A stretch of DNA of 64,000 nt from a virus: positions 1 to 64,000 of IMG/VR virus record IMGVR_UViG_3300042863_000830; one strand, 5' to 3'. Positions 1,123-62,703 of this stretch are shown piece by piece. The notes under the pieces are model-generated. The model saw nothing but the letters and a program-made list of their open reading frames with translations, was not told the origin of the DNA and did no database searches. Both the position numbers and the translations under genes were made by a program. Every line of letters begins with the position of its first letter. The stretch's first letter is position 1.

Positions 1123-1176
1123 TTTACATTTTTTGACTAGAATGTTTTTTTGTCCCTGCTATGGCTGATTTAAGAT

Positions 1177-1977: not shown

Positions 1978-2026
1978 TGTTTTGGTATTATTGCTTTAAC
2001 TGAATATAAACACTAAATTAATAAAC

Positions 2027-31345: not shown

Positions 31346-32037
31346 GAGAAATTTGTATATGTATACCAACTTGGAATAGGGTAGAAATGACATTGAAAAG
31401 TTTTAGTAAGGTATATGACGATCCTCGTGTTAAAAACATTGTAATAGTGGACGACATGAGTGATTTGCCTATTTATAACCAATTAAAGCAAGAATGTGAT
31501 AAGCTAAAAAAGGTTAAACTATTTAGAAACCTAAGCAACAGAGATTGTTATGCAAACAAGTATGTGGCTATAAGCCTATCAACAACAGACTATTGTATCA
31601 TACTTGATTCTGACAATGAAATAGACACAGACTATTTGGACAAGATATATGAGCAAGAATGGGATAAAGACACGGTATTGGCACCAGATTGGGCTATGCC
31701 AATGTTTAATTACACAGAATACGCTAACCTAATTGTAACCAAAGACAACTTACCGGAATATATAGACAAGTCAATGTTTGAAACTTGCTTGAATTGCATG
31801 AACTATTTTGTAAATAAAAATTCTTATTGTGAAGTATGGGATGCGGAAATAGATCCGGTAACCAGCGATAGCTTATTTCAGAATTACAATTGGCTAATGT
31901 CAGGTCGAATTATCCATATAGTTGAAGGGTTAAGATACAATCATTTAGTCCACAATCAATCGCATTATATAAATAATGTGCAAAGAACAGGAGATTTTAG
32001 AGAAAAATTAATAGAAAAAATTAGGGAATTAAATTAA
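31342..32037 (+). CDS. glycosyltransferase family 2-like
   Basis: 231 residues. ICICIPTWNRVEMTLKSF, then NIVIVDDMSD and CIILDSDNEIDTDYLDKIY, is the GT2 GT-A fold with its DxD metal site (DSD). Soluble, no membrane anchor, which fits a cytoplasmic enzyme acting on a protein or nucleotide-linked glycan. The substrate cannot be told. Four-base overlap with the preceding gene. Confidence 0.85.
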   Translation: MREICICIPTWNRVEMTLKSFSKVYDDPRVKNIVIVDDMSDLPIYNQLKQECDKLKKVKLFRNLSNRDCYANKYVAISLSTTDYCIILDSDNEIDTDYLDKIYEQEWDKDTVLAPDWAMPMFNYTEYANLIVTKDNLPEYIDKSMFETCLNCMNYFVNKNSYCEVWDAEIDPVTSDSLFQNYNWLMSGRIIHIVEGLRYNHLVHNQSHYINNVQRTGDFREKLIEKIRELN

Positions 32038-32057
32038 ATTAATTAACTTTATCCCCT

Positions 32058-32795
32058 ATGGTAACCTTCAACAACGCGGGAAGAATGGGCAACTGGCTTT
32101 TTGAGTGTGCTACGGCTATGGCCTATGCGTTACGGCATGACTTAAATTTTACCGTTCCAAACGAAACTAGCAACCCAAAATGGAACCCCATCTATTGCTC
32201 GCATTTAATTAATGATAGCTATAATCCCGGACTTGAAAAAGTTCACTTATGGGAAACAAAACATTCTTACGAAGAATTACCATACGATTCATCATGGAAA
32301 GATAAGAATATAATAATTGAAGGGTACAGACAAACAGCTAAATACTTTGACAACTATCGTAATGAAATACTTTACTTGTTAAATTTTCCATATAAAAAAA
32401 TGGATGGCTATGTTTCTATCCATGTAAGACGAGGCGATTATGTAACATTAAGAGATAAACATCCGGAGGTAACAATAGAATGGTATGAAAAGGCAATGGC
32501 TATGTTCCCTAACTATAAGTTTAAATTCTTTTCAGATGACATTAGTTGGTGTATGGAAACATTTGCGCATAGAAGCGATTGTGAATATTCTGGAAATACA
32601 GACGAGCAATCCGATCTTGTAGAAATGAGCTGGTGTGAGCATCAAGTATGTTCTCCATCTACATTCTCTTGGTGGGGTGCGTATTTAAATAAAAATGAAG
32701 ATAAAAAAGTAATCTTTCCGCAGTTTTGGTTTAGTGAAGGATGGTGCGGATTAGACACTAGCGATATTGTTAAACCTGAATGGATAAAATTATGA
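32058..32795 (+). CDS. GT11-type alpha-1,2-fucosyltransferase-like
   Basis: 245 residues. NAGRMGNWLFECATAMAYAL corresponds to the GGLGNQLFQ-type motif, IHVRRGDYV (about residue 121) is the GDP-sugar binding motif shared by alpha-1,2/1,6-fucosyltransferases, and CSPSTFSWWGAYLN is the third GT11 motif. Donor expected: GDP-L-fucose or the closely related GDP-L-galactose, which the epimerase encoded two genes later could produce. It overlaps the methyltransferase gene by 16 bases. Confidence 0.85.
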   Translation: MVTFNNAGRMGNWLFECATAMAYALRHDLNFTVPNETSNPKWNPIYCSHLINDSYNPGLEKVHLWETKHSYEELPYDSSWKDKNIIIEGYRQTAKYFDNYRNEILYLLNFPYKKMDGYVSIHVRRGDYVTLRDKHPEVTIEWYEKAMAMFPNYKFKFFSDDISWCMETFAHRSDCEYSGNTDEQSDLVEMSWCEHQVCSPSTFSWWGAYLNKNEDKKVIFPQFWFSEGWCGLDTSDIVKPEWIKL

Positions 32796-33382
32796 ATGAT
32801 TTAATTATGTTTGATTTTCAGCATTTCTATCAAAGAATTGCAAAAGAGTTACCCAACAACGCACGACTAGCAGAAGTCGGTATTGCAAATGGCGATAGTG
32901 TTATATATCTAGCACAAGAATTAAAAAACTTGGGTAAAGATTTTAAAATTTATGCAATAGATAATATGGGCTACGGTGGTTTTTTCCAAATGAAAACCAT
33001 ATACGAAAACATTATAAAAAGCGGTTTGGGTGATTATATAGAAGTAATGCCTTACCCAAGTTTAGAGTGTGCTAAAATGTTTAATGATGGTTTTTTAGAT
33101 TTTGTTTATATTGATTCATCACACACATACAAAGAAACAAAGCAAGAAGTAATTGAATGGTATAATAAAGTAAAAGATGAGGGCGTACTAGCAGGCCATG
33201 ATTTTAATGCAGATGAAGTAAATAGAGCAGTAAGTCAAATTGTGCCAAAAATATTTATCAGATCAGATATTGCAGATAGAGAATTTGAGGCAGAAAAAGT
33301 TTTACATTCAGAAGAAACTGCTAACGGATGGGGATTATGGTGGTTTAAAAAACAATGGTATTTAAAACTAAATAAATTTTAA
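32780..33382 (+). CDS. class I methyltransferase (Methyltransf_24-like)
   Basis: 200 residues. RLAEVGIANGDSVIYLAQEL is the SAM-binding motif I, YAIDNM follows at motif II, and FVYIDSSHTYKETKQEVIEW with GVLAGHDF is characteristic of the Methyltransf_24 group found in sugar- and cephalosporin-type methyltransferases. It probably methylates a sugar hydroxyl in the glycan built by this cluster. An alternative ATG four codons downstream (32792) would leave only a four-base overlap and may be the true start. Confidence 0.75.
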   Translation: MDKIMNDLIMFDFQHFYQRIAKELPNNARLAEVGIANGDSVIYLAQELKNLGKDFKIYAIDNMGYGGFFQMKTIYENIIKSGLGDYIEVMPYPSLECAKMFNDGFLDFVYIDSSHTYKETKQEVIEWYNKVKDEGVLAGHDFNADEVNRAVSQIVPKIFIRSDIADREFEAEKVLHSEETANGWGLWWFKKQWYLKLNKF

Positions 33383-33383
33383 T

Positions 33384-34397
33384 ATGAAAACAGCTTGCGT
33401 ATTAGGCGGTCATGGAATGATTGGGATGCAATTAGTAAAAAGATTAAAAAGCGAAGGTTATTGGGTAAGATCAGTAGATGTCAAACAGCCTGAATTTTCA
33501 AAGTCTGAAGCAGATGAAGCATTTATTTTAGATTTGCGTAATCCATCAAGTGTATCAAAGGCTTTATGGAACCCCCAACAAACAACATGGCATGATAACG
33601 TTAATGCATTTGATGAAGTGTATCAATTAGCTGCCGATATGGGGGGCGCTTTGTATGTATTTACAGGCGTTAATGATGCAGATATTATTTATGATTCAAC
33701 AATGATTAATTTAAATGTGGCAAAGGCTGCGTCAGAATGTGGAGTTAAGAAATTATTCTTTTCATCAAGTGCTTGTGCTTATAGCGAAAGACTACAAGAG
33801 TCATTAGATAGCGCATCATTAAAAGAAGATTCAGCTTGGGATGGCAAGCCAGATAGTGTGTACGGCATTGAGAAGCTACTATCAGAACAGATTTATGATT
33901 CTTTCAGAAGAAACAAAGGGTTAGATGTAAGAATTGGTCGTTTCCATAACATATTTTCTCCTGAATGTACTTACAAGGACGGCAGAGAAAAAGCTCCAGC
34001 AGCAGTGTGTAGAAAGGTAGCAGAAGCAACAGATGGTGGAGAAATTGAAATATTTGGTGATGGTTTACAACAGCGTAGTTTTTTATTTATTGACGAGTGT
34101 TTAGATGGTATAAAAGCATTGATGCAATCGGATTATGTTTATCCTGTTAATATTGGCTCAGATGAAATGATATCAATTAATGACTTGGCTAAAATGGTTA
34201 TTAAAATTTCAGGCAAAACTTTAACAATTAATAATGTTGAATCAAACGCATTAGGTGTTAGAGGTAGAAATTCAAACAATGAGTTGGTAGAAAAGGTAAC
34301 AGGTTGGCGTCCAACAAAGCCACTTGAGGAAGGCATGGTTAAATTATATAATTGGATTGAATTAGAAGTTAATAAACATAAAAGCAAAAGTATATGA
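33384..34397 (+). CDS. GDP-mannose 3,5-epimerase
   Basis: 337 residues, an extended short-chain dehydrogenase. GGHGMIGMQL gives the NAD-binding GxxGxxG; VYQLAADMGG, FFSSSACAYSE (with the catalytic Cys of plant GME), YGIEKLLSEQIY (the Tyr-x-x-x-Lys pair), YKDGREKAPAAVCRK (second catalytic Lys), RSFLFIDECLDG and VNIGSDEMISINDLAKM follow plant GME in order, as does GVRGRNSNN near the C-terminus. GME converts GDP-D-mannose to GDP-L-galactose and GDP-L-gulose. Motif agreement is very strong. It would supply a rare donor to the neighbouring glycosyltransferases. Confidence 0.9.
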   Translation: MKTACVLGGHGMIGMQLVKRLKSEGYWVRSVDVKQPEFSKSEADEAFILDLRNPSSVSKALWNPQQTTWHDNVNAFDEVYQLAADMGGALYVFTGVNDADIIYDSTMINLNVAKAASECGVKKLFFSSSACAYSERLQESLDSASLKEDSAWDGKPDSVYGIEKLLSEQIYDSFRRNKGLDVRIGRFHNIFSPECTYKDGREKAPAAVCRKVAEATDGGEIEIFGDGLQQRSFLFIDECLDGIKALMQSDYVYPVNIGSDEMISINDLAKMVIKISGKTLTINNVESNALGVRGRNSNNELVEKVTGWRPTKPLEEGMVKLYNWIELEVNKHKSKSI

Positions 34398-35029
34398 TGA
34401 TATCATTTGATTACTTAGTCAGCAAGCATAAGTTAGATATAAAAGGCGTTCTTCACTTAGGCGCATCAACAGGGCAAGAAAGAAAAGAATACGATAATTA
34501 TTGTAAGGGCGATGTTTTGTGGGTCGAAGCAATACCATCTGTTTATTTAGAATTAGTAAAAAACATAGAACCTTATGAAAAGCAAAGAGCTTTTAACGCT
34601 TGTCTAAGTAATGTAGACAATGAAGAAGTGGTTTTTAATGTATCAAATAATGAAAGCCAGAGTTCATCAATGTTTGAGCTTGGTACTCATCTTTTAATCC
34701 ATCCAGAAGTGCATTACATAGAACAGATAACAATGAAAACTAAGAGAGTTGATACTCTGTTTAAGGGTTATAGTTTTAAAAATATAAACTTTCTTAACGT
34801 AGATCTTCAAGGTGCAGAGCATTTGGCTATTGAAGGTATGGGTGATTTGATTAAAAATATAGATTACGCATTGCTAGAGGTTAATATGAAGGAAACTTAT
34901 AAAGGATGTATGCTTATTCCTGATTTAGATTATTTCATGATGCAGCGCGGATTTGAAAGAGTTGAAACAGGCGATTGGGTTGCCGAAACGTGGACTGATG
35001 CCCTTTATGTAAGAAAATTTAATATATGA
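34394..35029 (+). CDS. FkbM-family methyltransferase
   Basis: 211 residues. KGVLHLGASTGQERKEYDNY (SAM motif I variant), VLWVEAIPSVY, then TLFKGYSFKNINFLNVDLQG with GAEHLAIEGMG match the FkbM methyltransferase domain, which O-methylates sugars and polyketides. Four-base overlap with the epimerase gene. It likely caps or modifies a sugar in the glycan. Confidence 0.8.
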   Translation: MMISFDYLVSKHKLDIKGVLHLGASTGQERKEYDNYCKGDVLWVEAIPSVYLELVKNIEPYEKQRAFNACLSNVDNEEVVFNVSNNESQSSSMFELGTHLLIHPEVHYIEQITMKTKRVDTLFKGYSFKNINFLNVDLQGAEHLAIEGMGDLIKNIDYALLEVNMKETYKGCMLIPDLDYFMMQRGFERVETGDWVAETWTDALYVRKFNI

Positions 35030-35847
35030 TAGACGTACCAAAGGAGTTTATGCCTACCATAAACACGGTTTATCCTTTTGAAAATTATACTATTTTTGAA
35101 GAATGGGTATCTTCTAGGTTTATACCAGATTTTAATGGGAGGGCTTATTTAAGAATCCATTGGACATCATATCATGTAAATAACAATTATGGGAATGATC
35201 CGGTAGCTAGAAAAAGCCTGCAAGACTATGTAGATGCATTGCCTAGAAATCAACGATATTGGACAATTTGCCAATACGATGATGGGGTTTTGGTTGACTT
35301 TAAAGATTTAGATATATTGGTATTCAATATGAGTAAGAAAGAAGGGATAGAGATACCTTTGCTTTGTATGCCACATAGTTTTAAATGGAATGGTAAAAAA
35401 ACAATTTTTGCTTCTTTTATTGGCACTAATACTCACCCAATAAGAAATTATGTATTTAATATTCAAAATTCAGATTATTACATATCCCAAGAGCAGCATG
35501 ATGTAAATAAGTTTTGTGGTATTATTAGTCAATCTATATTCGGATTATGCCCTAGAGGGTATGGTTTAAACAGCTTTAGAATCGCCGAGTGCATCCAGTA
35601 CGAAACTATACCTGTGTATATTAGCGATGAGTTTATTAATTGCTTTGATGCCAATTTTGAAGATTATGGGGTAGTCATAAAAGCTGAAGATGCTCATAGG
35701 ATAGTACCAATTTTAAACAGTATCCCAAGTATAGACATAGTTGAAAAGCAACTAAAAATAAAAGAAATATACAATAAGTATTATACTTACCAAGGGGCTT
35801 TAAACAACATAATACAGAATCTAAATGAAGATAGCGGTAATTCATAA
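35026..35847 (+). CDS. exostosin-like (GT47-type) glycosyltransferase
   Basis: 273 residues. The C-terminal half has the exostosin signature SIFGLCPRGYGLNSFRIAEC followed by IQYETIPVYISDEF, a GT-B nucleotide-sugar binding site. The N-terminal part (residues 1-110) is aromatic-rich. The last 23 bases overlap the next gene. Family members elongate polysaccharides; the donor cannot be inferred. Confidence 0.78.
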   Translation: MIDVPKEFMPTINTVYPFENYTIFEEWVSSRFIPDFNGRAYLRIHWTSYHVNNNYGNDPVARKSLQDYVDALPRNQRYWTICQYDDGVLVDFKDLDILVFNMSKKEGIEIPLLCMPHSFKWNGKKTIFASFIGTNTHPIRNYVFNIQNSDYYISQEQHDVNKFCGIISQSIFGLCPRGYGLNSFRIAECIQYETIPVYISDEFINCFDANFEDYGVVIKAEDAHRIVPILNSIPSIDIVEKQLKIKEIYNKYYTYQGALNNIIQNLNEDSGNS

Positions 35848-36370
35848 TTTTGATGCTGGTGATCGATTTGACAGGTTAATGAATGAATTTAAAGAGCAGG
35901 GCATCAAAGACTTTTCTTTTTTCCCTGCCGTATATGATTCTCATTCAGTTAAAAAAGCAATTAATTTAGCTCATAAACAATGCGTTCAGTATGCCAAAGA
36001 CACAGGTTTGCCTGAAATATGCATAATGGAGGATGACGTTCATTTTACCAATCCGGATAGTTTTTCGTACTTTTTAAGAAATAAGCCATTAGATTTTGAT
36101 ATTTATTTGAGTGGCATATACATTGGGGAGATTCGTGAAGATCAAACAGTAGATAATTTTACTGGTTTTCATTGCTACATAGTCAACAGCAAGTTTTACG
36201 ATACATACCTAAATACGCCTTTAGATGAGCATATAGACCGTGCGTTAGGGGGGTTAGGGAAGTATGTGGTTTCCGATCCTTTTATTGCTATTCAATACAA
36301 CGGATTTTCATATAACACAAAAATGGAAATGAATTATGATAGTTTATTGGAAGGCAGAAAATTATATTAA
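35825..36370 (+). CDS. GT25-like glycosyltransferase, second copy
   Basis: 181 residues. IAVIHNFDAGDRFDRLMNEF, then ICIMEDDVHFTNPDSFSYF with the EDD-type acidic cluster, and FTGFHCYIVNSKFYDTYL, are GT25-like but diverged from the first copy. It is the last gene of the glycan block, ending before the promoter of the portal gene. Shorter than many GT25 enzymes, so a specialised or minimal enzyme. Confidence 0.6.
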   Translation: MKIAVIHNFDAGDRFDRLMNEFKEQGIKDFSFFPAVYDSHSVKKAINLAHKQCVQYAKDTGLPEICIMEDDVHFTNPDSFSYFLRNKPLDFDIYLSGIYIGEIREDQTVDNFTGFHCYIVNSKFYDTYLNTPLDEHIDRALGGLGKYVVSDPFIAIQYNGFSYNTKMEMNYDSLLEGRKLY

Positions 36371-38802: not shown

Positions 38803-39288
38803 ATGGTAAAGTCTTTATTGTCAGCAAACTTGAGAAAAGGTTTGCAAGAGGCACTTCAAATGGAATTATATCAATCTAACCTTTGGAAGCACTTAGCTAA
38901 TCAATTACAAAGATTAGGTTACTTTGGTAGTCAGAAATATTTTTTAGATGAAAGTGCGGAAGAATTGACGCATTACCAAATTATCGTTGATTTTATGAAT
39001 GATATGGGGGATTGCGCTAGTTTGCCTGAAATTGAAGCAATGAAGGATAAAGTTGAATCAATTGGCGATGCATTAGAAATTGGGTACGAAACAGAGCTAG
39101 ATGTATTAAATATGTACAAAGAGCTACAAAAGAAAGCCCAAGAAGAAGATTGCGCAGTTGGCATTTTCTTACAACAATTCGTTACAATTCAAGTAAAAGC
39201 AGTCGGTCATTACGGAGATTTGTTAGCTAAGTATAAAGTTGCTGAATACACTAAAGAGCTTTTAGAATTTGATCAACACATTAATTAA
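38803..39288 (+). CDS. ferritin-like diiron protein
   Basis: 161 residues, colinear with E. coli FtnA (165). QMELYQSNLWKHLANQL gives Glu21; ESAEELTHYQIIVDF gives Glu54 and His57; IGYETELDVL gives Glu98; FLQQFVTIQ gives Gln130. These correspond to the ferroxidase ligands E17, E50, H53, E94 and Q127, so the di-iron site is intact, while the C-site acidic residues are replaced (Ile, Lys, Ala). It would oxidise and store iron. It lies one base after the portal gene and before the scaffold, a strange place for an iron protein; it may be packaged or act during infection. Confidence 0.8.
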   Translation: MVKSLLSANLRKGLQEALQMELYQSNLWKHLANQLQRLGYFGSQKYFLDESAEELTHYQIIVDFMNDMGDCASLPEIEAMKDKVESIGDALEIGYETELDVLNMYKELQKKAQEEDCAVGIFLQQFVTIQVKAVGHYGDLLAKYKVAEYTKELLEFDQHIN

Positions 39289-43985: not shown

Positions 43986-46900
43986 ATGGCAATACAAGGT
44001 CTTTTTACGGGTGAAGTAAAAATAAGAGAATTAAATGGTGTGTTAATTGCCGCCAATGGTGTTGTAGATTCTGTTGGTAATATTACTTCAGGAACAGCCG
44101 GTACTTCTGGTTCATCTGGCACTGCTGGTACTTCCGGCTCTGCTGGTACTTCTGGTTTTGCAGGTACGGCAGGTAGACTTGTAAATAATTTTGTAGCAAC
44201 AGCAGGACAAACTACTTTTTATATTCCTAGCGGATATGATAATGGGATGGTGGATGTTTTTGTTAATGGAGTAAAATTATTCCCAAGCGATTTTACAGCC
44301 ACAGATGGATTTAATGTAATACTTAATAATCCTTTAAAAGTAGGCGATAATGTAGAGATAGATAATTTTGTATCTAGCTATGTTTCTTCTTCTGGTTCAT
44401 CAGGGACGGCAGGCACCGCAGGAACTTCTGGAACAACTGGTACTTCAGGTATTGGTGGGGATAAGTATTATACAATATCTGTATCTATTTTTACATTAGG
44501 AACTGGTGGATATCTTATGGTTTCTCCCGGCTTATCATACTCTCCTGCTCAATCAATTATTGTAGTACATGATAATACTCACTTTCAAGAATGTGAGGTA
44601 GTTTCTTATAATGTTGTTACAGGAGAATTAGTATTTGGTGATCCTAATAGAGTTGTAGGCGGTGGAACATTCTCTAATTGGGTAGTGAACTTAGATGGAG
44701 CTTCTGGTGGTGATGGTTCTTCTGGTACAAGTGGAAGCTCTGGTTCAAGTGGTAGCTCTGCTACAAGTGGTACTAGCGGTACTACTGGTACTTCTGGTAG
44801 TTCAGGAAGCTCAGGTTCAAGTGGCTCTAGCGGTTCATCTGGCTCAAGTGGTTCAAGCGGTTCTAGTGGTACTTCCGGCTCCTCCGGAACATCTGCAACA
44901 AGTGGAAGCAGTGGTTCAAGCGGTTCGTCAGGTACTTCAGGTATAAATGGTACTTCAGGCACAACAGGTACTAGTGGTTCATCAGGTACAAGCGCAACTA
45001 GCGGTACAACTGGAACTAGTGGCACTTCGGGTACAACAGGTACATCAGGTCTTTCAGGAGATAGATATAGAACAACATCTACTACAACATTTACTTTAGG
45101 CAATGCAGGTACTATAACAATAGGAACACTATTGGGATATAGCCCTGCTCAATCAATAATTATAGTTTATGATGCTTCAAACTTTCAAGAGTGCGAGGTA
45201 GTATCATATGATGCAAATACAGGTTCTTTAACATTTTTAGCCCCTACTAGAACAGTGGGTAGTGGTACTTATAGCGCATGGACAGTGAACTTGGATGGCG
45301 CGAGTGGTGGCGATGGTTCAAGCGGTACTTCTGGTACTTCTGCAACAGCAGGTACATCAGGTACTTCTGCAACGGCAGGCACCTCTGGTTCAAGCGGTAC
45401 AAGTGGTACAACAGGCACAAGTGGAACAACGGGTACTTCAGGAACAGCAGGAACAAGCGGAGTAAGCGGCATTTCAGCAGGACAGACTTATTATTTTAAC
45501 CAAAGTGCATCTTCTGATGTATCTCCTTATAAGGTATTAGCTACCGAACCTTCAACAGCAGCACAGCAAACTGTAACTGTTTCTGGGGTAAGTTCAGGAT
45601 CAACTGCTTTAGTTAGTTCATTTCTAACTCCAGAATTAGGATTTACCATTATACCGGGCGGAGTACAAAGATTTCATTTACATTTTCTAAAACAAGCAAA
45701 TGGTAACGCTTTTGAAGCATATGTAACAATAGAATTAGCAAACTCTGCGGGCGTTGGTTATGGTACAATAATACCTACAAATGCTTCAGAAGTAGACTTT
45801 TTAGATGCTTCAACACCGGTTGAGGTACTTACAGACTTAGTGCTTCCAACAACTGCGATTCTTGATACAGATCGCATTATTGTAAAGATTTACGTTACAA
45901 ATTTTGGATCAGGAACTCACAATATAAATTGGTATACCGAAGGATCAACAAACTATTCTTATGTAATAACTTCAGTAGGTCAAATAGCAGGCACTTCTGG
46001 TTCATCAGGTACTAGCGGATCAAGTGGAACATCTGGCGCAACCGGTTCATCAGGGGAAACTGGTACTTCCGGTTCTTCTGGAACAAGTGCAACTAGCGGT
46101 AGCTCTGGTACATCTGGCGGCACTGGTTCGTCAGGCGAAACTGGTACGTCAGGTACTAGCGGTCTTTCAGGTACATCAGGGGCGCAAGGTACTTCTGGTT
46201 CATCAGGCACTTCGGGTAACGCAACCACTTCTGCAAGAGCAGTTCAAGTATTTACTGCAACAGCAAGTCAAACAACTTTCACTGTAACCAATGGTTATAG
46301 CGTAGGAATGGTAGATGTGTTTGTAAATGGAGTTAAATTGGTTAATGGCGTGGATTATACGGCAACCAATGGTACTACTGTGGTATTAACAGATGCTTTA
46401 ACAGTTGGTCAGATTGTTGAAATTGATAACTATTTGACTGCATTTTTACCAACCAATGCACTTAGAACAATAACTACATTTACTGCGACTGCTGGTCAGA
46501 CCACATTTGCAGTTACATATACTCAAGGGTTAATAGATGTATTTTATAATGGTTCTAATTTAGCTCAATCAGAATATACTGCGACCAATGGTACAAGTAT
46601 AATATTAGCTACTGCTTGTCAAGTAAATGATATAGTAGTAGTATATGCTTATTCTTATGCAGTAGGAGCTTATAGTGGTATTGCTGGTAGTGGTACAATT
46701 AATACCATACCAAAGTTCACCGCATCCGCATCAATAGGAGATAGTGCAATTACAGATGATGGAACAACTGTTACTTTAGTATCTAGAGCTTTAGCTGGTA
46801 CAAGTGCTACGTTTAATAGTAATCAAGCATTAACTGTTGTTGGCACAAATTCAACATCTGCAAATAATACTATAACTGGATATTCTGCTGATTTATATGC

Positions 46901-47999
46901 AGTTGCAGTTAGACAAAAAGGTGCATCTGCTGGTATAAGTGGAACTAATTTTATGGCACAAATAATAAGTGCAACGGGTGCTGAAGGATTAGAAATATAT
47001 ACCCCAAATTCAAAAGAATTAATTTTAGGCACAAATGCTACTGCAAGACTTACAATAGGCACTACTGGTGCTGCTACATTCTCAAGTAGTGTAAGAGTTA
47101 ATAATGCAAATGACATAGCAAGATTAAGTGTATTTGGAACTTCTGGTAATCCATCAATGACTGCTGATACAAATAACTTATTTTCAATTACGGGTAATTT
47201 AGGGCCACAATTAAATATCGGTGGTTATAATGGTGCATCTTATGGTATGTGGTTACAAGTTAAAGATGCTAATAATAGTAATATTAATTACCCTATTTTA
47301 TTACAACCATTAGGAGGATCAGTTGCAATTGGAACTGCAAGTCCAAGTGCTTTATTACATTTAGCGGTTGCAAATGCAGCAGTAGATGGAACGAAAGGTG
47401 TAAAAATAACAAATCCTGCTGGTACAACAGTGATGCTTGAGTGTGGAGTTAGTAGTGATTCTTTTGTAGGAACAACAAGTGCAAGTGATTTTAGTATAAG
47501 AACAGGCAATTCAGAAAGAATGAGAATCACATCGGGGGGTAGTGTATTAATGGGAATTGGAACAAATTCTGCAAGTGCAAGATTAGCACTTGATGCAATT
47601 GGTATGGCAGTTTATGATGGTGGTAATTATAGACAATGCTATATGAATGGTAGCACAATGGCATGGTGGAATGGTAGTAATCAAGGAACTTTATCAAGTG
47701 CAGGGGTATGGACTGATGCATCAGATATTTCTATTAAAAAAGATGTTAAGGATATTGAATATGGCTTAGATGCAGTATTAAAGTTAAAGCCAAGAAGTTA
47801 TAAAATGAAAGAAGATAATTTAGAACAAGTTGGTTTTATAGCACAGGAAGTTGAAGAAGTAATTAAAGAATTAGTATCAACAGACAATAGAGGTATGAAG
47901 GGATTATCTTATGGACAATTAACTGCAGTTTTAGTAAAAGCAATACAAGAGTTAAAAGCAGAAATAGACGAACTTCATAAAATTGTAGCTACAAAATAA
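43986..47999 (+). CDS. collagen-like tail fibre with S74 intramolecular chaperone
   Basis: 1337 residues. Five blocks of Gly-Thr-Ser / Gly-Ser-Ser triplets (about residues 36-60, 138-158, 237-360, 440-498 and 665-745) alternate with globular domains; AGQTTFYIPSGYDNGMVDVF and a sister copy (SQTTFTVTNGYSVGMVDVFV) are duplicated. The C-terminus (about 1244-1337, SIKKDVKDIEYGLDAVLKL, QVGFIAQEVEEV, AVLVKAIQELKAEI) is the S74 endosialidase-type chaperone, which trimerises the fibre and is cleaved off. Extremely rich in Ser/Thr acceptors. TAATG overlap with the following endonuclease gene. Probably host receptor binding. Confidence 0.88.
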   Translation: MAIQGLFTGEVKIRELNGVLIAANGVVDSVGNITSGTAGTSGSSGTAGTSGSAGTSGFAGTAGRLVNNFVATAGQTTFYIPSGYDNGMVDVFVNGVKLFPSDFTATDGFNVILNNPLKVGDNVEIDNFVSSYVSSSGSSGTAGTAGTSGTTGTSGIGGDKYYTISVSIFTLGTGGYLMVSPGLSYSPAQSIIVVHDNTHFQECEVVSYNVVTGELVFGDPNRVVGGGTFSNWVVNLDGASGGDGSSGTSGSSGSSGSSATSGTSGTTGTSGSSGSSGSSGSSGSSGSSGSSGSSGTSGSSGTSATSGSSGSSGSSGTSGINGTSGTTGTSGSSGTSATSGTTGTSGTSGTTGTSGLSGDRYRTTSTTTFTLGNAGTITIGTLLGYSPAQSIIIVYDASNFQECEVVSYDANTGSLTFLAPTRTVGSGTYSAWTVNLDGASGGDGSSGTSGTSATAGTSGTSATAGTSGSSGTSGTTGTSGTTGTSGTAGTSGVSGISAGQTYYFNQSASSDVSPYKVLATEPSTAAQQTVTVSGVSSGSTALVSSFLTPELGFTIIPGGVQRFHLHFLKQANGNAFEAYVTIELANSAGVGYGTIIPTNASEVDFLDASTPVEVLTDLVLPTTAILDTDRIIVKIYVTNFGSGTHNINWYTEGSTNYSYVITSVGQIAGTSGSSGTSGSSGTSGATGSSGETGTSGSSGTSATSGSSGTSGGTGSSGETGTSGTSGLSGTSGAQGTSGSSGTSGNATTSARAVQVFTATASQTTFTVTNGYSVGMVDVFVNGVKLVNGVDYTATNGTTVVLTDALTVGQIVEIDNYLTAFLPTNALRTITTFTATAGQTTFAVTYTQGLIDVFYNGSNLAQSEYTATNGTSIILATACQVNDIVVVYAYSYAVGAYSGIAGSGTINTIPKFTASASIGDSAITDDGTTVTLVSRALAGTSATFNSNQALTVVGTNSTSANNTITGYSADLYAVAVRQKGASAGISGTNFMAQIISATGAEGLEIYTPNSKELILGTNATARLTIGTTGAATFSSSVRVNNANDIARLSVFGTSGNPSMTADTNNLFSITGNLGPQLNIGGYNGASYGMWLQVKDANNSNINYPILLQPLGGSVAIGTASPSALLHLAVANAAVDGTKGVKITNPAGTTVMLECGVSSDSFVGTTSASDFSIRTGNSERMRITSGGSVLMGIGTNSASARLALDAIGMAVYDGGNYRQCYMNGSTMAWWNGSNQGTLSSAGVWTDASDISIKKDVKDIEYGLDAVLKLKPRSYKMKEDNLEQVGFIAQEVEEVIKELVSTDNRGMKGLSYGQLTAVLVKAIQELKAEIDELHKIVATK
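44700..45060 (+). repeat. GTS/GSS triplet repeat block
   Basis: Near-uninterrupted tandem 9-base-type units encoding Gly-(Thr/Ser)-Ser, the longest collagen-like block of the first fibre. Related blocks lie at 44091-44165, 44397-44455, 45300-45480 and 45985-46220, and in the second collagen-like fibre at 53147-53390 and 53630-54100. Long repeats like these recombine readily. Confidence 0.85.
47518..47540 (+). repeat. shared fibre seam, copy 1
   Basis: Sequence GAATGAGAATCACATCGG followed by GGGGT, encoding ERMRITSGG residues; identical over 23 bases to 51107-51129 and over 16 bases to 49723-49738, in three different fibre genes. Confidence 0.8.
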
Positions 48000-48742
48000 T
48001 GCCATACGTTTATAGACATATCAGATTAGACAAAAACGAACCGTTTTACATAGGTATTGGTAGTGCTAAAAATTACTATAGGGCTTATGGAAAAGATAAT
48101 AGAAACAAACATTGGCATAATATTGTAAAAAATACGAATTACGAAGTTGATATTTTGTTTGATAATCTTGATGATGACAGCGCAAGGGCAAAAGAAATAG
48201 AATTTATTAAATTGTATGGTAGAGTTGATTTAGGAACAGGATGTTTGGTTAATTTAACAGATGGCGGAGATGGCTGTTTGAATAAAATTATAACTAAAGA
48301 AGTAGCAAAAAAGATGTCAGATTCTCATAAAGGTAAAAAACATACTGAAGAATGTAAAAAAAGGCTATCAGAATATCACAAAAAAAGATTGCAAGACCCA
48401 GAAATGCTTAAAAAGCATAAAGAATCAAGAATTGGCATAAAGCATAAAAATCCAATGTCTTTGGAACATAGGATTAAAATATCTGAAAATAACAAAAATC
48501 GTGTTATTACTGATGAAACAAAGAATAGGATGTCTAAATGTAAAAAAACCATTATTTTACAATACGATTTAAACGGTAACTTTATCAAAGAATGGGAAGG
48601 AATAATTGATGCTGTTAAGCAATATGGGACATCAACAAATATTACAAAGTGTTGTCAAGGTAAATTAAAAGAAGTATGTGGGTATATTTGGAAGTATAAA
48701 CATCCAGAAAAGGTAGTTAAAAGAAAAAAACGTAACGAATAA
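47999..48742 (+). CDS. GIY-YIG homing endonuclease with NUMOD motifs
   Basis: 247 residues. YVYRHIRLDKNEPFYIGIG at the N-terminus is the GIY-YIG catalytic strand pair (Y-x-Y...Y-I-G); the K-x-x-E and catalytic E-F-I-K segment (AKEIEFIKLYGR) follows. The middle has repeated KMSDSHKGKKHTEECKKRLS-type NUMOD3 DNA-binding helices, and the C-terminus ILQYDLNGNFIKEWEG with SNITKCCQGKLKEV is NUMOD1-like. A free-standing mobile gene inserted between fibre genes, starting within the stop of the first. It can spread itself and nearby fibre DNA into related phages. Confidence 0.85.
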   Translation: MPYVYRHIRLDKNEPFYIGIGSAKNYYRAYGKDNRNKHWHNIVKNTNYEVDILFDNLDDDSARAKEIEFIKLYGRVDLGTGCLVNLTDGGDGCLNKIITKEVAKKMSDSHKGKKHTEECKKRLSEYHKKRLQDPEMLKKHKESRIGIKHKNPMSLEHRIKISENNKNRVITDETKNRMSKCKKTIILQYDLNGNFIKEWEGIIDAVKQYGTSTNITKCCQGKLKEVCGYIWKYKHPEKVVKRKKRNE

Positions 48743-51699: not shown

Positions 51700-52389
51700 A
51701 TGGCTTACATTTATAGACATATAAGAATTGATACAAATATGCCTTTTTATATTGGCATAAGCAATACTAATGATGAATATAAGAGAGCATATTCTACATA
51801 CGATAGAAGTACTCAATGGAAAAGGATTACAAACAAGACTGAATTTGAAGTTGAAATTCTAATTCAAGAATTGACTTGGGAGGAAGCACAAGCCAAAGAA
51901 AGAGAGTTTATATCATTATATGGCAGAAGGGACTTGAAAACAGGTACGCTTTGTAATTTAACTAATGGAGGCGAAGGATTTGATGGTTATAAATTATCAG
52001 ATGCTGCAAGACAAAAAATGAGTAATTCTCAAAAGGGTAATACAAATTGGAAGAATAGAGTTGTTACTGAGGAAATGAAAAGAAAAATATCTTTAGCCAA
52101 TACTGGTAAGAAAAGGACTGAAGAACAAAAAATGTATAAAAGGTTAAAATATTCTGGTGTTAATAGTGCTAATTATGGTCAGAAATATAGCGAAGAAAGA
52201 AAAAAGAAAATGTCTGAATCAAAGATTAAACGAGCAATTTTACAATTTGATTTAGATGGGAACTTTATAAAAGAGTGGTCTTCTAAGAAAGAAGCTGCTA
52301 AAAATGGATATAATGAAAGCAATATATGGAAATGTTGCAATGGCTTAGGTAAAACACATAGAAAATGTATTTGGAAATATAAAATTTAA
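51700..52389 (+). CDS. GIY-YIG homing endonuclease, second copy
   Basis: 229 residues, a homologue of the first endonuclease: YIYRHIRIDTNMPFYIGISN, AKEREFISLYGRRDLKTGTL, NUMOD3 repeats (KMSNSQKGNTNWKNRV, KKRTEEQKMYKRL) and a NUMOD1 end (LQFDLDGNFIKEWSSKKEAA, NIWKCCNG). It lies directly after an S74-type fibre gene, as the first copy does, and has its own -7 box. Probably duplicated and independently mobile, with the two now recognising different sites. Confidence 0.84.
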   Translation: MAYIYRHIRIDTNMPFYIGISNTNDEYKRAYSTYDRSTQWKRITNKTEFEVEILIQELTWEEAQAKEREFISLYGRRDLKTGTLCNLTNGGEGFDGYKLSDAARQKMSNSQKGNTNWKNRVVTEEMKRKISLANTGKKRTEEQKMYKRLKYSGVNSANYGQKYSEERKKKMSESKIKRAILQFDLDGNFIKEWSSKKEAAKNGYNESNIWKCCNGLGKTHRKCIWKYKI

Positions 52390-52962: not shown

Positions 52963-54489
52963 ATGAGCAAAAATACAGTCCTTAGTGAAATACCTAATGT
53001 ATCAGGCATAATAAAGCAAGTTGGTACAAGTGGTTTTGCAACTGCAACCCCTAATGTGGATTATCAACTACCAATTAGCTTAACCACATTTGGCACAACT
53101 GGACCGGCTACTTTTAGTAGCAATGTATTAAATATACCTATTTATGGATCAAGTGGTACTACGGGTACTTCAGGTACTAGTGGTAATAGTGGATCTTCTG
53201 GATCAAGTGGTAGTAGTGGATCTTCTGGCTCGTCAGGCTCAAGTGGTACTACGGGAACATCAGGATCTTCTGGCTCGTCAGGATCTTCAGGATCTTCAGG
53301 TTCATCAGGATCTTCAGGAACTACCGGTACAAGCGGTACTACTGGAACTTCAGGAACTACTGGTACTTCAGGTACAAGCGGCATTAGCGGGGACAGATAT
53401 TTAACATCATCAGCTACTTCATTCACATTAGGCAATGCTGGAACTATTACTGTCGGCGTTGGATTAGCTTATAGTCCTAGTCAAACAGTTATCATATCTT
53501 TTAATCCTAGCAACTATCAAGAATCAGTTGTAACATCTTATAACAACGGCACAGGCAGTTTAGTATTTGGTGCGCCAATCACAACAGTTGGTTCAGGCAC
53601 ATACAATGCATGGTTAGTAAACCTAGCCGGTGCTAGTGGTGGCGATGGTAGTTCAGGGACTTCGGGGGCAAATGGCACATCGGGAATAAATGGCACATCT
53701 GGCGCAAATGGTACAAGTGGCTCAAGCGGTTCAAGCGGTTCAAGCGGCTCAAGCGGCTCAAGCGGAGTGAACGGAACAAGTGGCTCAAGCGGTTCAAGCG
53801 GTGTAAATGGGAATAACGGATCTTCAGGCACAAGCGGTGTAAATGGGAATAACGGATCTTCTGGAACAAGTGGAGTAAACGGAACGGCTGGTATTAGTGG
53901 CACATCTGGCGCAAATGGCTCGTCAGGTACAAGCGGCGTTTCTGGCTCATCAGGTTCTTCAGGAGTAAACGGAGGTGCCGGTTCGTCAGGTACAAGTGGC
54001 GCGCAAGGTGGTAATGGTACAAGTGGTGTTTCGGGTTCGTCAGGTACTTCAGGTGCAAACGGAGGCAATGGTTCTTCAGGCACAAGTGGGGTAAATGGAA
54101 CTGGATTTAATTCTATTTCTCCAACAACTGCAGGAGCTGTGCTTACAGCCAATGGTACATCTAATAGTGCAACAGCAAATACAGGAGTAACAATTAGCGG
54201 TTCTAATCTAACTGCTGCTGCATTTTTTGAAAGTTCAGATATAAGATTTAAGAATGTATTAGAAACAAATCCATCAATAGACTTACCAATAGATGTAATT
54301 AAATTTACTAGAACAGATGATGATAACAATGCAGTAAGATATGGTTATTCGGCTCAACAAGTGCAATCATATCTTCCAGAGGCAGTTTCAGGTGGTGAAA
54401 AGTTATCCGTAAATTACATGGATGTTCATACATTAAAAATAGCAGCATTAGAAAAACGTATTGCAGAATTAGAAGCTAAATTAAAATAA
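52963..54489 (+). CDS. second collagen-like tail fibre with S74 domain
   Basis: 508 residues. N-terminal cap (SEIPNVSGIIKQVGTSGFAT), collagen-like GSS/GTS blocks at about residues 62-143 and 223-380 (GVNG-NNG variants in the second), a globular domain between (YLTSSATSFTLGNAGTITVG, also found in the first fibre), and a C-terminal S74-type domain (DIRFKNVLETNPSIDLPIDV, YGYSAQQVQSYLPEAVSGG, then a coiled coil). It lies immediately upstream of a small beta-rich protein and the convergent glycosyltransferase; its Ser/Thr repeats are a candidate acceptor. Confidence 0.88.
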   Translation: MSKNTVLSEIPNVSGIIKQVGTSGFATATPNVDYQLPISLTTFGTTGPATFSSNVLNIPIYGSSGTTGTSGTSGNSGSSGSSGSSGSSGSSGSSGTTGTSGSSGSSGSSGSSGSSGSSGTTGTSGTTGTSGTTGTSGTSGISGDRYLTSSATSFTLGNAGTITVGVGLAYSPSQTVIISFNPSNYQESVVTSYNNGTGSLVFGAPITTVGSGTYNAWLVNLAGASGGDGSSGTSGANGTSGINGTSGANGTSGSSGSSGSSGSSGSSGVNGTSGSSGSSGVNGNNGSSGTSGVNGNNGSSGTSGVNGTAGISGTSGANGSSGTSGVSGSSGSSGVNGGAGSSGTSGAQGGNGTSGVSGSSGTSGANGGNGSSGTSGVNGTGFNSISPTTAGAVLTANGTSNSATANTGVTISGSNLTAAAFFESSDIRFKNVLETNPSIDLPIDVIKFTRTDDDNNAVRYGYSAQQVQSYLPEAVSGGEKLSVNYMDVHTLKIAALEKRIAELEAKLK

Positions 54490-54491
54490 AC

Positions 54492-55049
54492 ATGGCATAT
54501 AGTGACTTAGCAAATAATCAAGGTGTATCTTTTAATAGCTTAATCAGTGGAGTGTCTCAAGGATACTTTAGTGCAAAAACTACTATACCCTCTACCAACA
54601 AAATGGCTACAAAGTCTGCTTGTAATACGTATGTAACTGTAAACCCCTCATATCCTTCTTTTGCAGCAAAAGCAGATAATCAATTAGTTGTAAAACAAGA
54701 TTTACAAAATAATGAAGCCACTTTATACATTACAAATAATTTCTTTACAGGAACTATAACAAACGTTACAGTTAATGGAGTTAGTATTACAGGTGCTTCA
54801 TTCCCATTAGATATAGGTAATGGCACAACAGGTTACACTACACAAATAGGTACATACGATATATTGGTTTATTATGCAGATGCTACTAACCTTGACAATT
54901 ATATGCGTATAGAAGATTCTGAATATAATACTGCCTGTATAGATGGATTTTCTTCATTAGGTCCAGGACCTTATTATGTAACATTCTCAAGTCAAGTAAT
55001 CAATACAAGTGTTGGTGTTGTTATTGAATCTGGTGATGGAAATTGTTAG
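54492..55049 (+). CDS. hypothetical beta-rich virion protein
   Basis: 185 residues, beta-rich (LYITNNFFTGTITNVTVNGV, IGTYDILVYYADATNLDNYM) with a Ser/Gly-rich end. No signal peptide. Last gene of the fibre module, overlapping the convergent glycosyltransferase gene by 29 bases. Presumably a fibre tip or accessory protein. Confidence 0.55.
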   Translation: MAYSDLANNQGVSFNSLISGVSQGYFSAKTTIPSTNKMATKSACNTYVTVNPSYPSFAAKADNQLVVKQDLQNNEATLYITNNFFTGTITNVTVNGVSITGASFPLDIGNGTTGYTTQIGTYDILVYYADATNLDNYMRIEDSEYNTACIDGFSSLGPGPYYVTFSSQVINTSVGVVIESGDGNC

Positions 55050-57894
55050 ATGGCGCAGTTTTCCCCAATAGTTGCCATTGATGGATCTTGCCCATAAAAT
55101 CTTTTATTTTATCTATAACCATTTGTGCAGTAATTGATTTAGTGCATTCAAATTGTCTTTCAGTCCCTTTATGATCAGGACACCAATTCCAATCTCCTGC
55201 GTTTAATCTATGCCTATTAAAGCAACCACTACACTTTCCTTGAGGTGCAGATACTCTTATACAATCTTCCATCTCAGCAAAAGGTTCAGAAAAACCACTA
55301 ATAATAACGGTTGGGATATTTAAAGACCAAGATAGCCAACTTAAACCGCTCCCTATACCTATAAAGAACTCCGATTTAAGCATTTCTTCCATAACTGACT
55401 CAATACTACCATTCGGGTGGACAACTACGCCATTTGGGGCTATATTGCCCATATAGTCAACGCCTTCTTTGGATATAAGTTTAACCACATATCCTTTGCT
55501 AATCAAATAGTCTACCACTTCTTGCCATCCTTTTGGATTATTCCAATATTTAGCTTGTGCGGTAGAATGTATAGCAATGACTACTTGCTTAATTTTTTCA
55601 ACAGGTTTTATCTTTAATCTAGGTCTTACCTCCTTGTACTCTAACCCTAGTATGTTAGTAGCAGCCTTTTGCATTGAAATTGTATGAGGCACTTCAGGTT
55701 CTTTATTTTCATCATAAAACCACCCGACTCTGTATAAAGCATATACGTTTTGAACCACATCACCCGGACTTACAAATTCTAATTCAGGGTAATCAAACAT
55801 ATGATTCCAGAAAGTAGATACAATGACATGGCAATTATGTTTCTTTTTAAACTCCAAAGCATATGGCATCCAAGCTAAAGTGTCCCCTAGTGATTTACTT
55901 TCAAGCGTTATAAAGACTCTCTTGCTTTCAAGGTTTAGCTTGTTTTCAAATATCAAATTACCTTGATCCCATATTTTAACCTCCCATTCAGTAAACCATT
56001 GTCTATTTAGTTTTACCCAATTATTAACATCTAAATGATTATTATAGACACAATTACCATTTTCGTAAAATTCAACATAAAATCTTTTGTCTAAAAGAAC
56101 CTTATCTCGTTGGACATCATTTGTATAGTCTATTCCTTCAATGTCAACTTTGTTATCCTTTTTCAAGTCAGCCATTAACAACTCTTTAACCTTGTAGTTG
56201 TTTTCTTTTAAAAAGTTATAGAACTTAACTTCAAGTATATTGAAAGATGTGCCATTTGTGTAGTAATCTTTTTTGTCTTTAAATTTGGTTACAAATGATA
56301 AGATAGCATCTGTTTTGGCTGATAAAAAAGCAGAGCAATATGAATCTTCTTCATAAGACAGGTTAGTGTATTTATAGACTACAAAATCATTTGTATCTAA
56401 TTCCTTTAAATTGTTGTTTATTGTTGCTTTAGTAAGCTGGTAGTCGTAATTGATTATGTTTACCTTCTTATAGCCTAGTTTTTTAGCCAATTCTATTCCA
56501 TTACGCATTAAGGTATACACGCAATACCCATGTTCTTTTTCAAATAATTGGTACTCTTTTTCTCCTTTTTTATTTGTAAACCAATGATAATATGCCACAT
56601 TGTATTTAGCAAATTCACTCTTAAACAACAAAGGATTCTCTTTTGTATAAATAACATAATCACAAAGCTCTTGTGCATCTTCCTCTATTGGAAAATTCGC
56701 AGACAAAATGATATTCGTGTTTAAACTAGATAAGCAATTTTTAAGCAGTTGTTTCCTGAAATCGTTATTAGGGTGGGCTAAAACAATTGATACAGAATCC
56801 TTATCTTTTTTAGCACTAACATTAATTCCTTTAATCTCCAAGTATGGATTATCTACAAAATGTTGTATTATAATAGGCTTTTGCTCCTTAATTGGTAGTT
56901 CAAGTAACTTTAAATAGGCTTCTTCATGCCTTAATCCAAAAATCAATGAATTGTTATCGGTAGGTACGTTGTAATTACATTCTAAGGTACTTAAATCAGT
57001 ATCTATTGGATTAATATACTTATCATACATACCATCATATTGAGGCAAATTACGGGCAATAATGGGCAGTTTGTAACCAATAGCTTCACGAAGTACCAAT
57101 GGATTTAGCTCCCAAGTAGAATTAAACATAAAAATATCAGCCGCAGACATAAAGGTAGATATATCAGTCCTTTCCCCCCACACTTTCACATTGCTAGGTA
57201 AATCCTTCATTAGTGGCTCCCAATAGTCCATAAAGTTCCCCGCTTGATTGCCGATAAAATGAAACATCATATCAGGGTACTTACGAGCAATTTCTAACCC
57301 TTCAGCTTGATTCTTGCCCGAAGTCCAAAGCCCTACATTTATAACATGCTTCTTCTTTAAATCCATGCCTAAATCCTTCTTAGCGTGTATTTTTTCTATC
57401 CATAAATTAAGCTTTAAATCTATTGGGTAAGGTATGGTTACAAACTTACTATCCATCCCTGCAAATATATCTTCGTGCCAAGAGGTGCAAAAAGCATACA
57501 TATCAGGATGGTATCGTTTACTATCAAGAGGTCTAAAATTAGAGTTATGACAAGTTTCTACTATGCGCCAAGTCCTATCATTGCAATACAATTCATTAAA
57601 AAGTGTGTCATTGCCCATTGATTCTGGCATTTCATCCAAATGAACAATATCTATTCCGTTATCCCTAATTATATCCATAGCTCGCATTTTGTCGCTATCA
57701 AGACTATAAAAGTTATTACCCAATAAAGAGATTATTTGATCCCTTTGTACCGGGAATAACTTTCCATAATCCTCGTATTCCACAACAAAAATTTCAAACG
57801 ATTCAGCATAGTCAAGTAAAGTTTGAATACGTTTAAGTACAAATTGAGGCATACCGCCCGTTGAGATATGCGACATTAGATATAATATTTTCAT
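55021..57894 (-). CDS. multi-domain glycosyltransferase with TibC/Aah-like C-terminus
   Basis: 957 residues. Residues 1-360: GT-B (GT4-like), with LMSHISTGGMPQFVLKRIQT, VINVGLWTSGKNQAEGLEIA and IFMFNSTWELNPLVLREAIG. Residues about 370-640: GT-A-like unit of unknown family (SIVLAHPNNDFRKQLLKNCL, VNIINYDYQL). Residues about 640-957: beta linker, then VFITLESKSLGDTLAWMPYA, IGIGSGLSWLSWSLNIPTVI and a cysteine cluster C-x2-C-x13-C-x11-C (from about 886). This matches the autotransporter heptosyltransferase group (TibC/Aah), which O-glycosylates Ser in repeats and binds iron through four Cys. Convergent with the fibre genes, it is a candidate enzyme for decorating the Ser/Thr-rich fibres (inference). 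Confidence 0.82.
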   Translation of the reverse strand: MKILYLMSHISTGGMPQFVLKRIQTLLDYAESFEIFVVEYEDYGKLFPVQRDQIISLLGNNFYSLDSDKMRAMDIIRDNGIDIVHLDEMPESMGNDTLFNELYCNDRTWRIVETCHNSNFRPLDSKRYHPDMYAFCTSWHEDIFAGMDSKFVTIPYPIDLKLNLWIEKIHAKKDLGMDLKKKHVINVGLWTSGKNQAEGLEIARKYPDMMFHFIGNQAGNFMDYWEPLMKDLPSNVKVWGERTDISTFMSAADIFMFNSTWELNPLVLREAIGYKLPIIARNLPQYDGMYDKYINPIDTDLSTLECNYNVPTDNNSLIFGLRHEEAYLKLLELPIKEQKPIIIQHFVDNPYLEIKGINVSAKKDKDSVSIVLAHPNNDFRKQLLKNCLSSLNTNIILSANFPIEEDAQELCDYVIYTKENPLLFKSEFAKYNVAYYHWFTNKKGEKEYQLFEKEHGYCVYTLMRNGIELAKKLGYKKVNIINYDYQLTKATINNNLKELDTNDFVVYKYTNLSYEEDSYCSAFLSAKTDAILSFVTKFKDKKDYYTNGTSFNILEVKFYNFLKENNYKVKELLMADLKKDNKVDIEGIDYTNDVQRDKVLLDKRFYVEFYENGNCVYNNHLDVNNWVKLNRQWFTEWEVKIWDQGNLIFENKLNLESKRVFITLESKSLGDTLAWMPYALEFKKKHNCHVIVSTFWNHMFDYPELEFVSPGDVVQNVYALYRVGWFYDENKEPEVPHTISMQKAATNILGLEYKEVRPRLKIKPVEKIKQVVIAIHSTAQAKYWNNPKGWQEVVDYLISKGYVVKLISKEGVDYMGNIAPNGVVVHPNGSIESVMEEMLKSEFFIGIGSGLSWLSWSLNIPTVIISGFSEPFAEMEDCIRVSAPQGKCSGCFNRHRLNAGDWNWCPDHKGTERQFECTKSITAQMVIDKIKDFMGKIHQWQLLGKTAPSNNFHHQIQ

Positions 57895-61808: not shown

Positions 61809-62468
61809 TTAAAATTTATATATTTTAGTTTCTTTACGGCATTTTACTTGCCAATCGTTGTTGTTTAATTCGTTAAAGCCAAAATTTAGTTTAGAGTGTG
61901 CTTTTTTAAGCACCAATCCTTCATATAGGTCTACCTCTACTATTTCATTATATAGTTTAGTAAATCCACCCGTATATGTTGGGGCTTTGTATATGTTATC
62001 TATATTGGTAAAACATATATGTTCATAGCTTTCTACTCCTTCAGGTGTAACTATCATTCTATTTGACGGGTATTCTTCTTCAAGTAGTATCAGTCTATCT
62101 GCAAGGGTTTCACCTATCAGGTACATATCTTGCCATACAAGGACATCCCATATAATAAATTTGTCTTTCTCTTTAATTCCATTTTCACCTATCTTTCCTT
62201 TGTTTAAATATTCTCCCGCATAGACATACCATTGGTTAGTTTTAGCTAATTGGTTAAATTCAATGTTTACATCTAAATTACTTAATGGATTCTTATGCCT
62301 ATTATATACATAAACATCATCTCCATTGGTAAAAACAAGGCAACAAGTTCCATTGTACTTTGGTTGTGCTAGGTACTCCTGACCTTCAAATTTATGCAAT
62401 TCGGTGTGCGGTATTTTAAATTCAGGTCTTGGTGGATATATGTAATTAAAATTCAAGTATGGTATCAT
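61809..62468 (-). CDS. ATP-dependent ligase-like nucleotidyltransferase
   Basis: 219 residues from the ATG at 62468. The frame is open further upstream to 62564, but those residues overlap the previous gene and lack ligase features, so I start right after that gene's stop. Motif I QPKYNGTCCLVF (Lys about residue 37) is the adenylated KxxG; YAGEYLNKG is motif III; KFIIWDVLVW is IIIa; YEGLVLKKA is IV; WQVKCRK is V. There is no OB-fold extension, so it is a minimal phage ligase joining DNA (or RNA) ends. Confidence 0.8.
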   Translation of the reverse strand: MIPYLNFNYIYPPRPEFKIPHTELHKFEGQEYLAQPKYNGTCCLVFTNGDDVYVYNRHKNPLSNLDVNIEFNQLAKTNQWYVYAGEYLNKGKIGENGIKEKDKFIIWDVLVWQDMYLIGETLADRLILLEEEYPSNRMIVTPEGVESYEHICFTNIDNIYKAPTYTGGFTKLYNEIVEVDLYEGLVLKKAHSKLNFGFNELNNNDWQVKCRKETKIYKF

Positions 62469-62469
62469 A

Positions 62470-62703
62470 TTAAAAATATTTGTCAAAAATTTCATTAAAA
62501 ACAGATTCTCTATTGGATGCTTGACTATTGATTTCTTCAGCAAAATCTTCCCAATTGTTATCAATCATACGGACATTCCAACTATCTGCTAATGTTTCCC
62601 ACATTAGGATAAAATCTTCCATATCAAGGTATGGCAAAGTATCATTCTTAAACATATGATACATAGTTTCTCTTAACATTCTTGTTTTAGTTACTTCAGG
62701 CAT
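62470..62703 (-). CDS. hypothetical acidic helical protein
   Basis: 77 residues, MPEVTKTRMLRETMYHMFKN followed by DTLPYLDMEDFILMWETLAD; acidic, helical, aromatic. No family recognised. It ends just before the ligase gene and follows a short gene by two bases. Confidence 0.55.
   Translation of the reverse strand: MPEVTKTRMLRETMYHMFKNDTLPYLDMEDFILMWETLADSWNVRMIDNNWEDFAEEINSQASNRESVFNEIFDKYF

Follow-up and report, generated by a model that had tools for sequence, protein, structure and literature searches.

Bacterial autotransporter heptosyltransferases (BAHT), among them TibC and AAH of Escherichia coli, are recognised by the curated family model TIGR04414 (hepto_Aah_TibC) and represented by the structures PDB 4rap and 4rb4. 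They combine a characteristic fold with a catalytic Asp, the residues Thr226, Lys230 and Trp305, and an iron finger of four Cys, and each is partnered by a Ser/Gly-rich repeat protein; TibC modifies Ser rather than Thr, its sites being N-S-G and T-S-A (PMC4358343). The fold, these residues, the four Cys and a repeat protein as likely partner recur for a phage gene described here. The stretch of DNA analysed (the window) comprises positions 1-64,000, which is most of the 67,710-base IMG/VR virus record IMGVR_UViG_3300042863_000830. Its terminase is closest to those of Flavobacterium and Cellulophaga phages, so the host is likely to belong to the Bacteroidota. The gene, at 55021-57894, encodes a protein of 957 residues, and we propose that this is probably a phage-encoded cytoplasmic protein O-glycosyltransferase that attaches heptose, or a sugar akin to it, to Ser in the G-[ST]-S repeats of tail fibres, with its GT4 module then probably extending the sugar. 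The gene and its modules are as follows.

55021..57894, minus strand: three-module glycosyltransferase (N-M-C), 957 residues; an open reading frame (ORF) with dN/dS support and 80% identical full-length relatives (L002, L003, L005)
55102..56064, minus strand: C module, residues 611-931, TibC/Aah-like protein O-glycosyltransferase by TIGR04414, TibC fold and residue mapping
56095..56844, minus strand: M module, residues 351-600 (about 360-600), possible glycosyltransferase, with homologues in relatives and a conserved N-Y-D motif
56935..57894, minus strand: N module, residues 1-320, GT4/GT-B, by PF00534, an E-x7-E motif at 262-270 and GT4 fold matches

The assignment of the C module was originally predicted from motifs, namely an SLGDTLAW start and a C-x2-C-x13-C-x11-C cluster, both of which are present, and it has proved right by curated hidden Markov model (HMM), fold and active-site residues. 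The HMM search that had been suggested as a check gave 261.5 bits against TIGR04414 over residues 611-931, above the curated cut-off of 200 bits, whereas models of the lipopolysaccharide (LPS) heptosyltransferases (GT9), the family without the iron site that had been named as the competitor, reached 23-26 bits against 261. TibC itself (4rap) is the best sequence match in the PDB (E 3.5e-52; 37% identity). Structure prediction, the other suggested check, was performed with AlphaFold from a 38-sequence alignment, which supersedes a single-sequence model of low confidence (predicted local distance difference test, pLDDT, 34), and the C module so modelled, with its N-terminal beta-barrel and GT-B core, superposes on the TibC crystal structure with a TM-score of 0.82 and a root-mean-square deviation of 2.4 A.

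TibC residue numbering and roles were taken from PMC4358343 and transferred by alignment. Catalytic Asp110 of TibC corresponds to D671 of the window protein, Thr226 to T778, Lys230 to K782 and Trp305 to W853, while the iron-finger Cys 339, 342, 358 and 370 are all kept as C888, C891, C905 and C917. The thumb beta-hairpin through which TibC assembles into a dodecamer (F265/V266) would remain hydrophobic, as Y814/M815; the stereoselectivity residue Pro300 is replaced by Gly. Among 145 phage sequences, many of them close relatives, neither Asp110 nor Trp305 varies and the four Cys hardly do; taken together, D110, T226, K230, W305 and the Cys are almost invariant.

The single 957-residue frame of the original prediction is present, on the minus strand, and it is a real, maintained gene, because the ratio of nonsynonymous to synonymous substitution (dN/dS) is 0.065 against L004 and 0.063 against L002, values that denote strong purifying selection; the match is far beyond chance. 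Its predicted N-terminal GT-B unit is borne out by Pfam PF00534 (residues 171-284, E 6.9e-9, 35.9 bits against a cut-off of 26.4) and by the GT4 E-x7-E motif at E262-E270, and the AlphaFold model of this module, with pLDDT mostly above 90, finds fold matches among GT4 enzymes including PimB', MshA and BshA. The GT-A-like middle unit fared less well, being neither confirmed nor excluded: Pfam, PDB-sequence and fold searches with the M module gave no usable match, its model has pLDDT below 50, and the N-Y-D motif is all that speaks for it. Homologues of the M module are found in L002-L006, L017, L081, L082, L211 and L601.

Convergent to the glycosyltransferase gene lies a fibre module, of which the relevant members are these.

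52963..54489, plus strand: fibre whose two G-[ST]-S tracts span residues 62-145 and residues 223-381, a probable acceptor, matching collagen-like tail-fibre PHROGs to 2e-32; 84 Ser and 32 Thr in the tracts
43986..47999, plus strand: second probable acceptor, a fibre of 1337 residues with ten G-x-x tracts, matching tail-fibre PHROGs; 98 Ser and 59 Thr in the tracts
54492..55049, plus strand: ORF of 185 residues between fibre and glycosyltransferase, overlapping the glycosyltransferase gene by 29 bases

The several hundred Ser and Thr first credited to the fibre repeats come to 273 when counted within strict G-x-x tracts, 157 in the larger fibre and 116 in the smaller. The 29-base convergent overlap is likewise real, but its partner is the 185-residue ORF that adjoins the repeat fibre at 52963-54489, not that fibre itself. 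It arises from a C-terminal extension of about 20 residues seen only in the window record; the 94% identical L004 stops some 20 codons earlier. Two homing-endonuclease-like ORFs with NUMOD3 matches also lie inside the fibre module, at 47999-48742 and 51700-52389 (both plus strand), the first matching PHROG 314 as well.

That the fibres are the acceptor was at first an inference. It now has the support of an association between enzyme and repeats, both in viral contigs chosen without regard to the enzyme and in independent bacterial loci. Test contigs of at least 20 kb were selected solely for DNA encoding GTSGTSGTSG, with GPQGPQGPQ collagen contigs and contigs picked by an arbitrary 15-mer as controls. 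A TIGR04414 hit over the cut-off was found in 19/50 GTSGTSGTSG contigs, compared with 1/43 GPQ-collagen contigs and 0/29 random contigs (Fisher p 1e-5 and 3e-5, respectively); since viral contigs are not phylogenetically independent, these and the following p-values serve as guides. Within the terminase (TerL) clade of the window, among contigs of at least 45 kb, G[ST][ST] tracts occur in 7/7 with TIGR04414 versus 2/11 without it (p 0.001). In the exception G033 a contig end is 3.2-5.5 kb away from the tracts, and going by synteny with G028 the enzyme gene would be situated past that end; in the exception G009 the situation is probably alike, judging by where its GT11 gene sits. Gene order varies while proximity persists: the genes are co-oriented and 31 bp apart in L006 and convergent in the window, and they are near each other also in the Microcystis phage Mel-JY01 and in a phage of 735 kb. 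When tracts are defined at the protein level, they accompany 12/20 glycosyltransferase regions and 0/20 controls, but those controls were placed by hand after the tract positions were known and are not relied on. In phages and bacteria alike, the third position of the repeat, as in G-[TS]-S, is Ser in 65-78% and Thr in 4-9%, a preponderance of the residue that TibC modifies.

The bacterial loci give a parallel case. For the 21 bacterial proteins most like the phage enzyme, 18/21 genes are near one for a G-[ST]-S repeat protein, versus 1/59 among more distant homologues (p 7e-14). Most of these 21 are from proteobacterial lineages, Methylobacter, Polaromonas and Oxalobacteraceae among them; a contig of a Flavobacteriales metagenome-assembled genome is probably phage. 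The GTS/GSS-repeat proteins beside the TibC homologues (loci L204-L224, in Methylobacter, Polaromonas and others) are small, mostly encoded within about 1 kb, and in several cases have a signal-peptide-like N-terminus; they are apparently an unstudied class of candidate glycoproteins.

A viral scan returned 217 relatives, and 79 loci were kept. Eleven of these loci have N and C as a fusion, 63 encode them in neighbouring genes, and in 5 the C module stands alone. Mel-JY01, an isolate (L081, PP395634), has GT4, M, a methyltransferase and C all within a single protein of 1,226 residues, and the 735-kb phage has yet another arrangement. In 40 of the operon-type loci the gene for an HldE-like adenylyltransferase begins within -57 to +1 bases of the C-gene stop, overlapping or adjoining the C gene, 35 of these loci also have an HldE-like kinase, and the GT4 gene of such loci bears a methyltransferase domain too. 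The best families for these genes are TIGR02198 and TIGR02199 (3.5e-27 and 5.4e-28), below the equivalog cut-offs, so they are called HldE-like only. In the nucleotidyltransferases the R of the (F/L)xxGRSTT promiscuity motif, which has been tied to CTP/UTP use (PMC11573728), is absent, and this argues for ADP-heptose.

Two repeat proteins among the relatives are as follows. At L081 2-3052 (plus strand) Mel-JY01 has an open frame of 1,016 residues with a 447-residue G-[ST]-S tract, largely opposite the annotated antisense coding sequences 1-651 and 739-2298 (minus strand), and this fibre gene is probably mis-annotated. At L080 5921-7288 (plus strand), roughly 2.7 kb away from a TibC cluster of the operon type, lies a gene for a 455-residue protein of 33% Thr with mucin-like TTTTTTEAP repeats, a possible Thr-rich acceptor.

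The proposed course of events is then as follows. TibC acts on its substrate in the cytoplasm, and phage fibres are also made there. Before virion assembly, the TibC-fold C module would use a nucleotide donor to add heptose, or a sugar closely related to it, to Ser of the fibre G-[ST]-S repeats, and the GT4 N module, perhaps with the M module, would then extend it. In the window phage the donor would be supplied by the host; many relatives appear to encode their own heptose-nucleotide enzymes. Possible effects are shielding, stiffening of the fibre or altered adsorption. Sequence itself shows the modules, the fold, the residues of the active site, the selection on the gene, its pairing with G-[ST]-S proteins in both phages and bacteria, and its coupling to HldE-like genes among relatives; the identity of the sugar, Ser as the site, the order of addition and the biological effect are all inferred.

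The window also contains a second glycan cassette, at 30725-36370 (plus strand) between terminase and portal. Its products are GT25-like, GT2, GT11 (the fucosyltransferase family), Methyltransf_24, a nucleoside diphosphate (NDP)-sugar epimerase whose best match is GDP-L-fucose synthase, an FkbM methyltransferase, a GT47 exostosin and a second GT25-like protein. The GT11 gene is present in 24/29 terminase relatives irrespective of a TibC-like gene, and because of this the cassette is a core trait of the phage clade that needs an explanation of its own; its inclusion in a fibre-glycosylation pathway was considered and is unsupported. Elsewhere in the window are a ferritin/rubrerythrin-like ORF directly 3' of the portal gene (38803-39288, plus strand; PF00210, 6.4e-17), an ORF resembling ATP-dependent DNA ligase and capping-enzyme nucleotidyltransferases (61809-62564, minus strand), and a 288-residue ORF whose N-terminus matches GroES-like PHROGs (12037-12903, plus strand).

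Several observations weigh against fibre glycosylation with heptose. Autotransporters are the partners in the BAHT family, but here the partner would be a collagen-like tail fibre. In the unselected set, the distance from TIGR04414 to tract, tested on nothing but the exact GTSx3 DNA pattern, a conservative definition that misses many tracts, is not significant (p 0.07-0.10) and gives weak evidence of clustering at 10 kb, a span in which 9/20 lie and 5.3 would be expected (p 0.04). The operon-type phages L010-L080 are mostly without nearby G-[ST]-S tracts. Ser/Thr tracts of the GPQ contigs show a similar third position, which makes the point from repeat grammar a weak one. As to the sugar, no heptose-synthesis gene was detected in the window record, and Arg286 of TibC, which contacts adenine N1, is needed for activity and is reported to be highly conserved (PMC4358343), is V834 in the window protein. 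Arg occupies this position in only 17/145 phage sequences compared with 74/88 bacterial homologues; because of this, donor specificity may differ. Hence the heptosyltransferase reading of the original prediction holds for the family and is uncertain for heptose. The transferase site is intact; donor recognition may have shifted. It is a minor possibility that the same class of enzyme acts on the same acceptor with another nucleotide sugar. In favour of this, most phage members, like the bacterial Methylobacter-type clade, have V, T, I or L for Arg286 and Gly or Ser for Pro300, and the window itself has no heptose-synthesis gene. Against this, in 40 relatives with the same Val the operon includes genes for an HldE-like kinase and an HldE-like adenylyltransferase, as counted above, their nucleotidyltransferases are of the kind that lacks the motif Arg linked to CTP/UTP, and K230, T226 and W305 are retained. 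Heptose is therefore favoured, on account of the family and of the HldE-like genes of relatives, with the loss of Arg286 standing against it.

The remaining alternatives concern the acceptor. It is unlikely that the enzyme modifies LPS or another glycan of the host surface to block superinfection. The rfaE and glycosyltransferase genes near the fibres of pelagimyophages have been so interpreted (PMC7029224), and the terminase-portal cassette would suit such a role; yet the C module belongs to a family of protein and not LPS glycosyltransferases, its partners are repeat proteins in both phages and bacteria, and the cassette is also found without TibC-like gene and without tracts. Quite unlikely, too, is a co-occurrence without function, in which aquatic Bacteroidota phages have both elements by shared ancestry: most positives are indeed aquatic metagenome contigs that are not independent, and positional clustering is modest under the conservative tract definition, but the pairing recurs in a cyanophage, the 735-kb phage and several proteobacterial lineages with differing gene orders, and enzyme and tracts co-vary within the TerL clade. 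Some phage glycosyltransferases act on DNA, as reviewed in PMC12619734, so glycosylation of nucleic acid, as in phage DNA hypermodification, might be entertained; with no HMM or fold relation to DNA glucosyltransferases, and with repeat proteins as partners, it is scarcely credible here. Glycosylation of the fibre repeats remains the preferred explanation. A wider version of it, which might equally prove right or wrong, is that phages and bacteria share a protein-glycosylation subfamily adapted to G-[ST]-S repeats of the collagen-like kind, in which TibC-like enzymes prime Ser, phages add GT4 and often a methyltransferase, many bring heptose-nucleotide genes, and tail fibres become densely glycosylated along their whole extent.

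If the proposal is right, it gives a concrete role to phage glycosyltransferases encoded beside tail fibres, which are usually interpreted as host-surface modifiers, and it would explain the purpose of viral NDP-heptose enzymes. The repeat fibres of many aquatic phages, including the Microcystis phage isolate and the 735-kb phage, would be glycoproteins, with effects on adsorption, stability, the modelling of fibres and their expression in E. coli; the bacterial loci point to further GTS-repeat glycoproteins. A literature search, with coverage mostly outside subscription journals, found no report linking TibC-like enzymes to phages, while a viral structure library holds a phage entry automatically named 'Glycosyltransferase Aah/TibC', so the homology has already been noticed by annotation pipelines.

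Among known phage systems, the virion glycosylation of mycobacteriophages (Freeman et al. 2023, cited in PMC12619734) is similar in that phage glycosyltransferases are proposed to act on the virion. It differs in that the sites, as cited there, are the C-termini of capsid and tail-tube proteins, with mention of neither a TibC-like module nor heptose genes. Pelagimyophages have an rfaE heptose-nucleotide gene and glycosyltransferases near the tail fibres, but these were interpreted as modifying the host O-chain and no TibC-like protein glycosyltransferase was identified there (PMC7029224). HldE-like kinase and nucleotidyltransferase genes have been described in viruses in a study that calls their role unsolved (PMC11573728); in relatives of the window phage such genes overlap or abut the TibC-like gene, which suggests one. 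The BAHT enzymes remain the nearest relatives, from which the window enzyme differs by the loss of Arg286, Gly in place of Pro300, and fusion to GT4 and M modules. In a phylogenetic tree the known autotransporter-type enzymes, including TibC, form a separate supported clade, with the window protein outside it. Because the window enzyme is of the TibC family by HMM, fold and catalytic residues, yet is without Arg286 and an autotransporter partner, we place it in a subfamily sister to the bacterial autotransporter heptosyltransferases.

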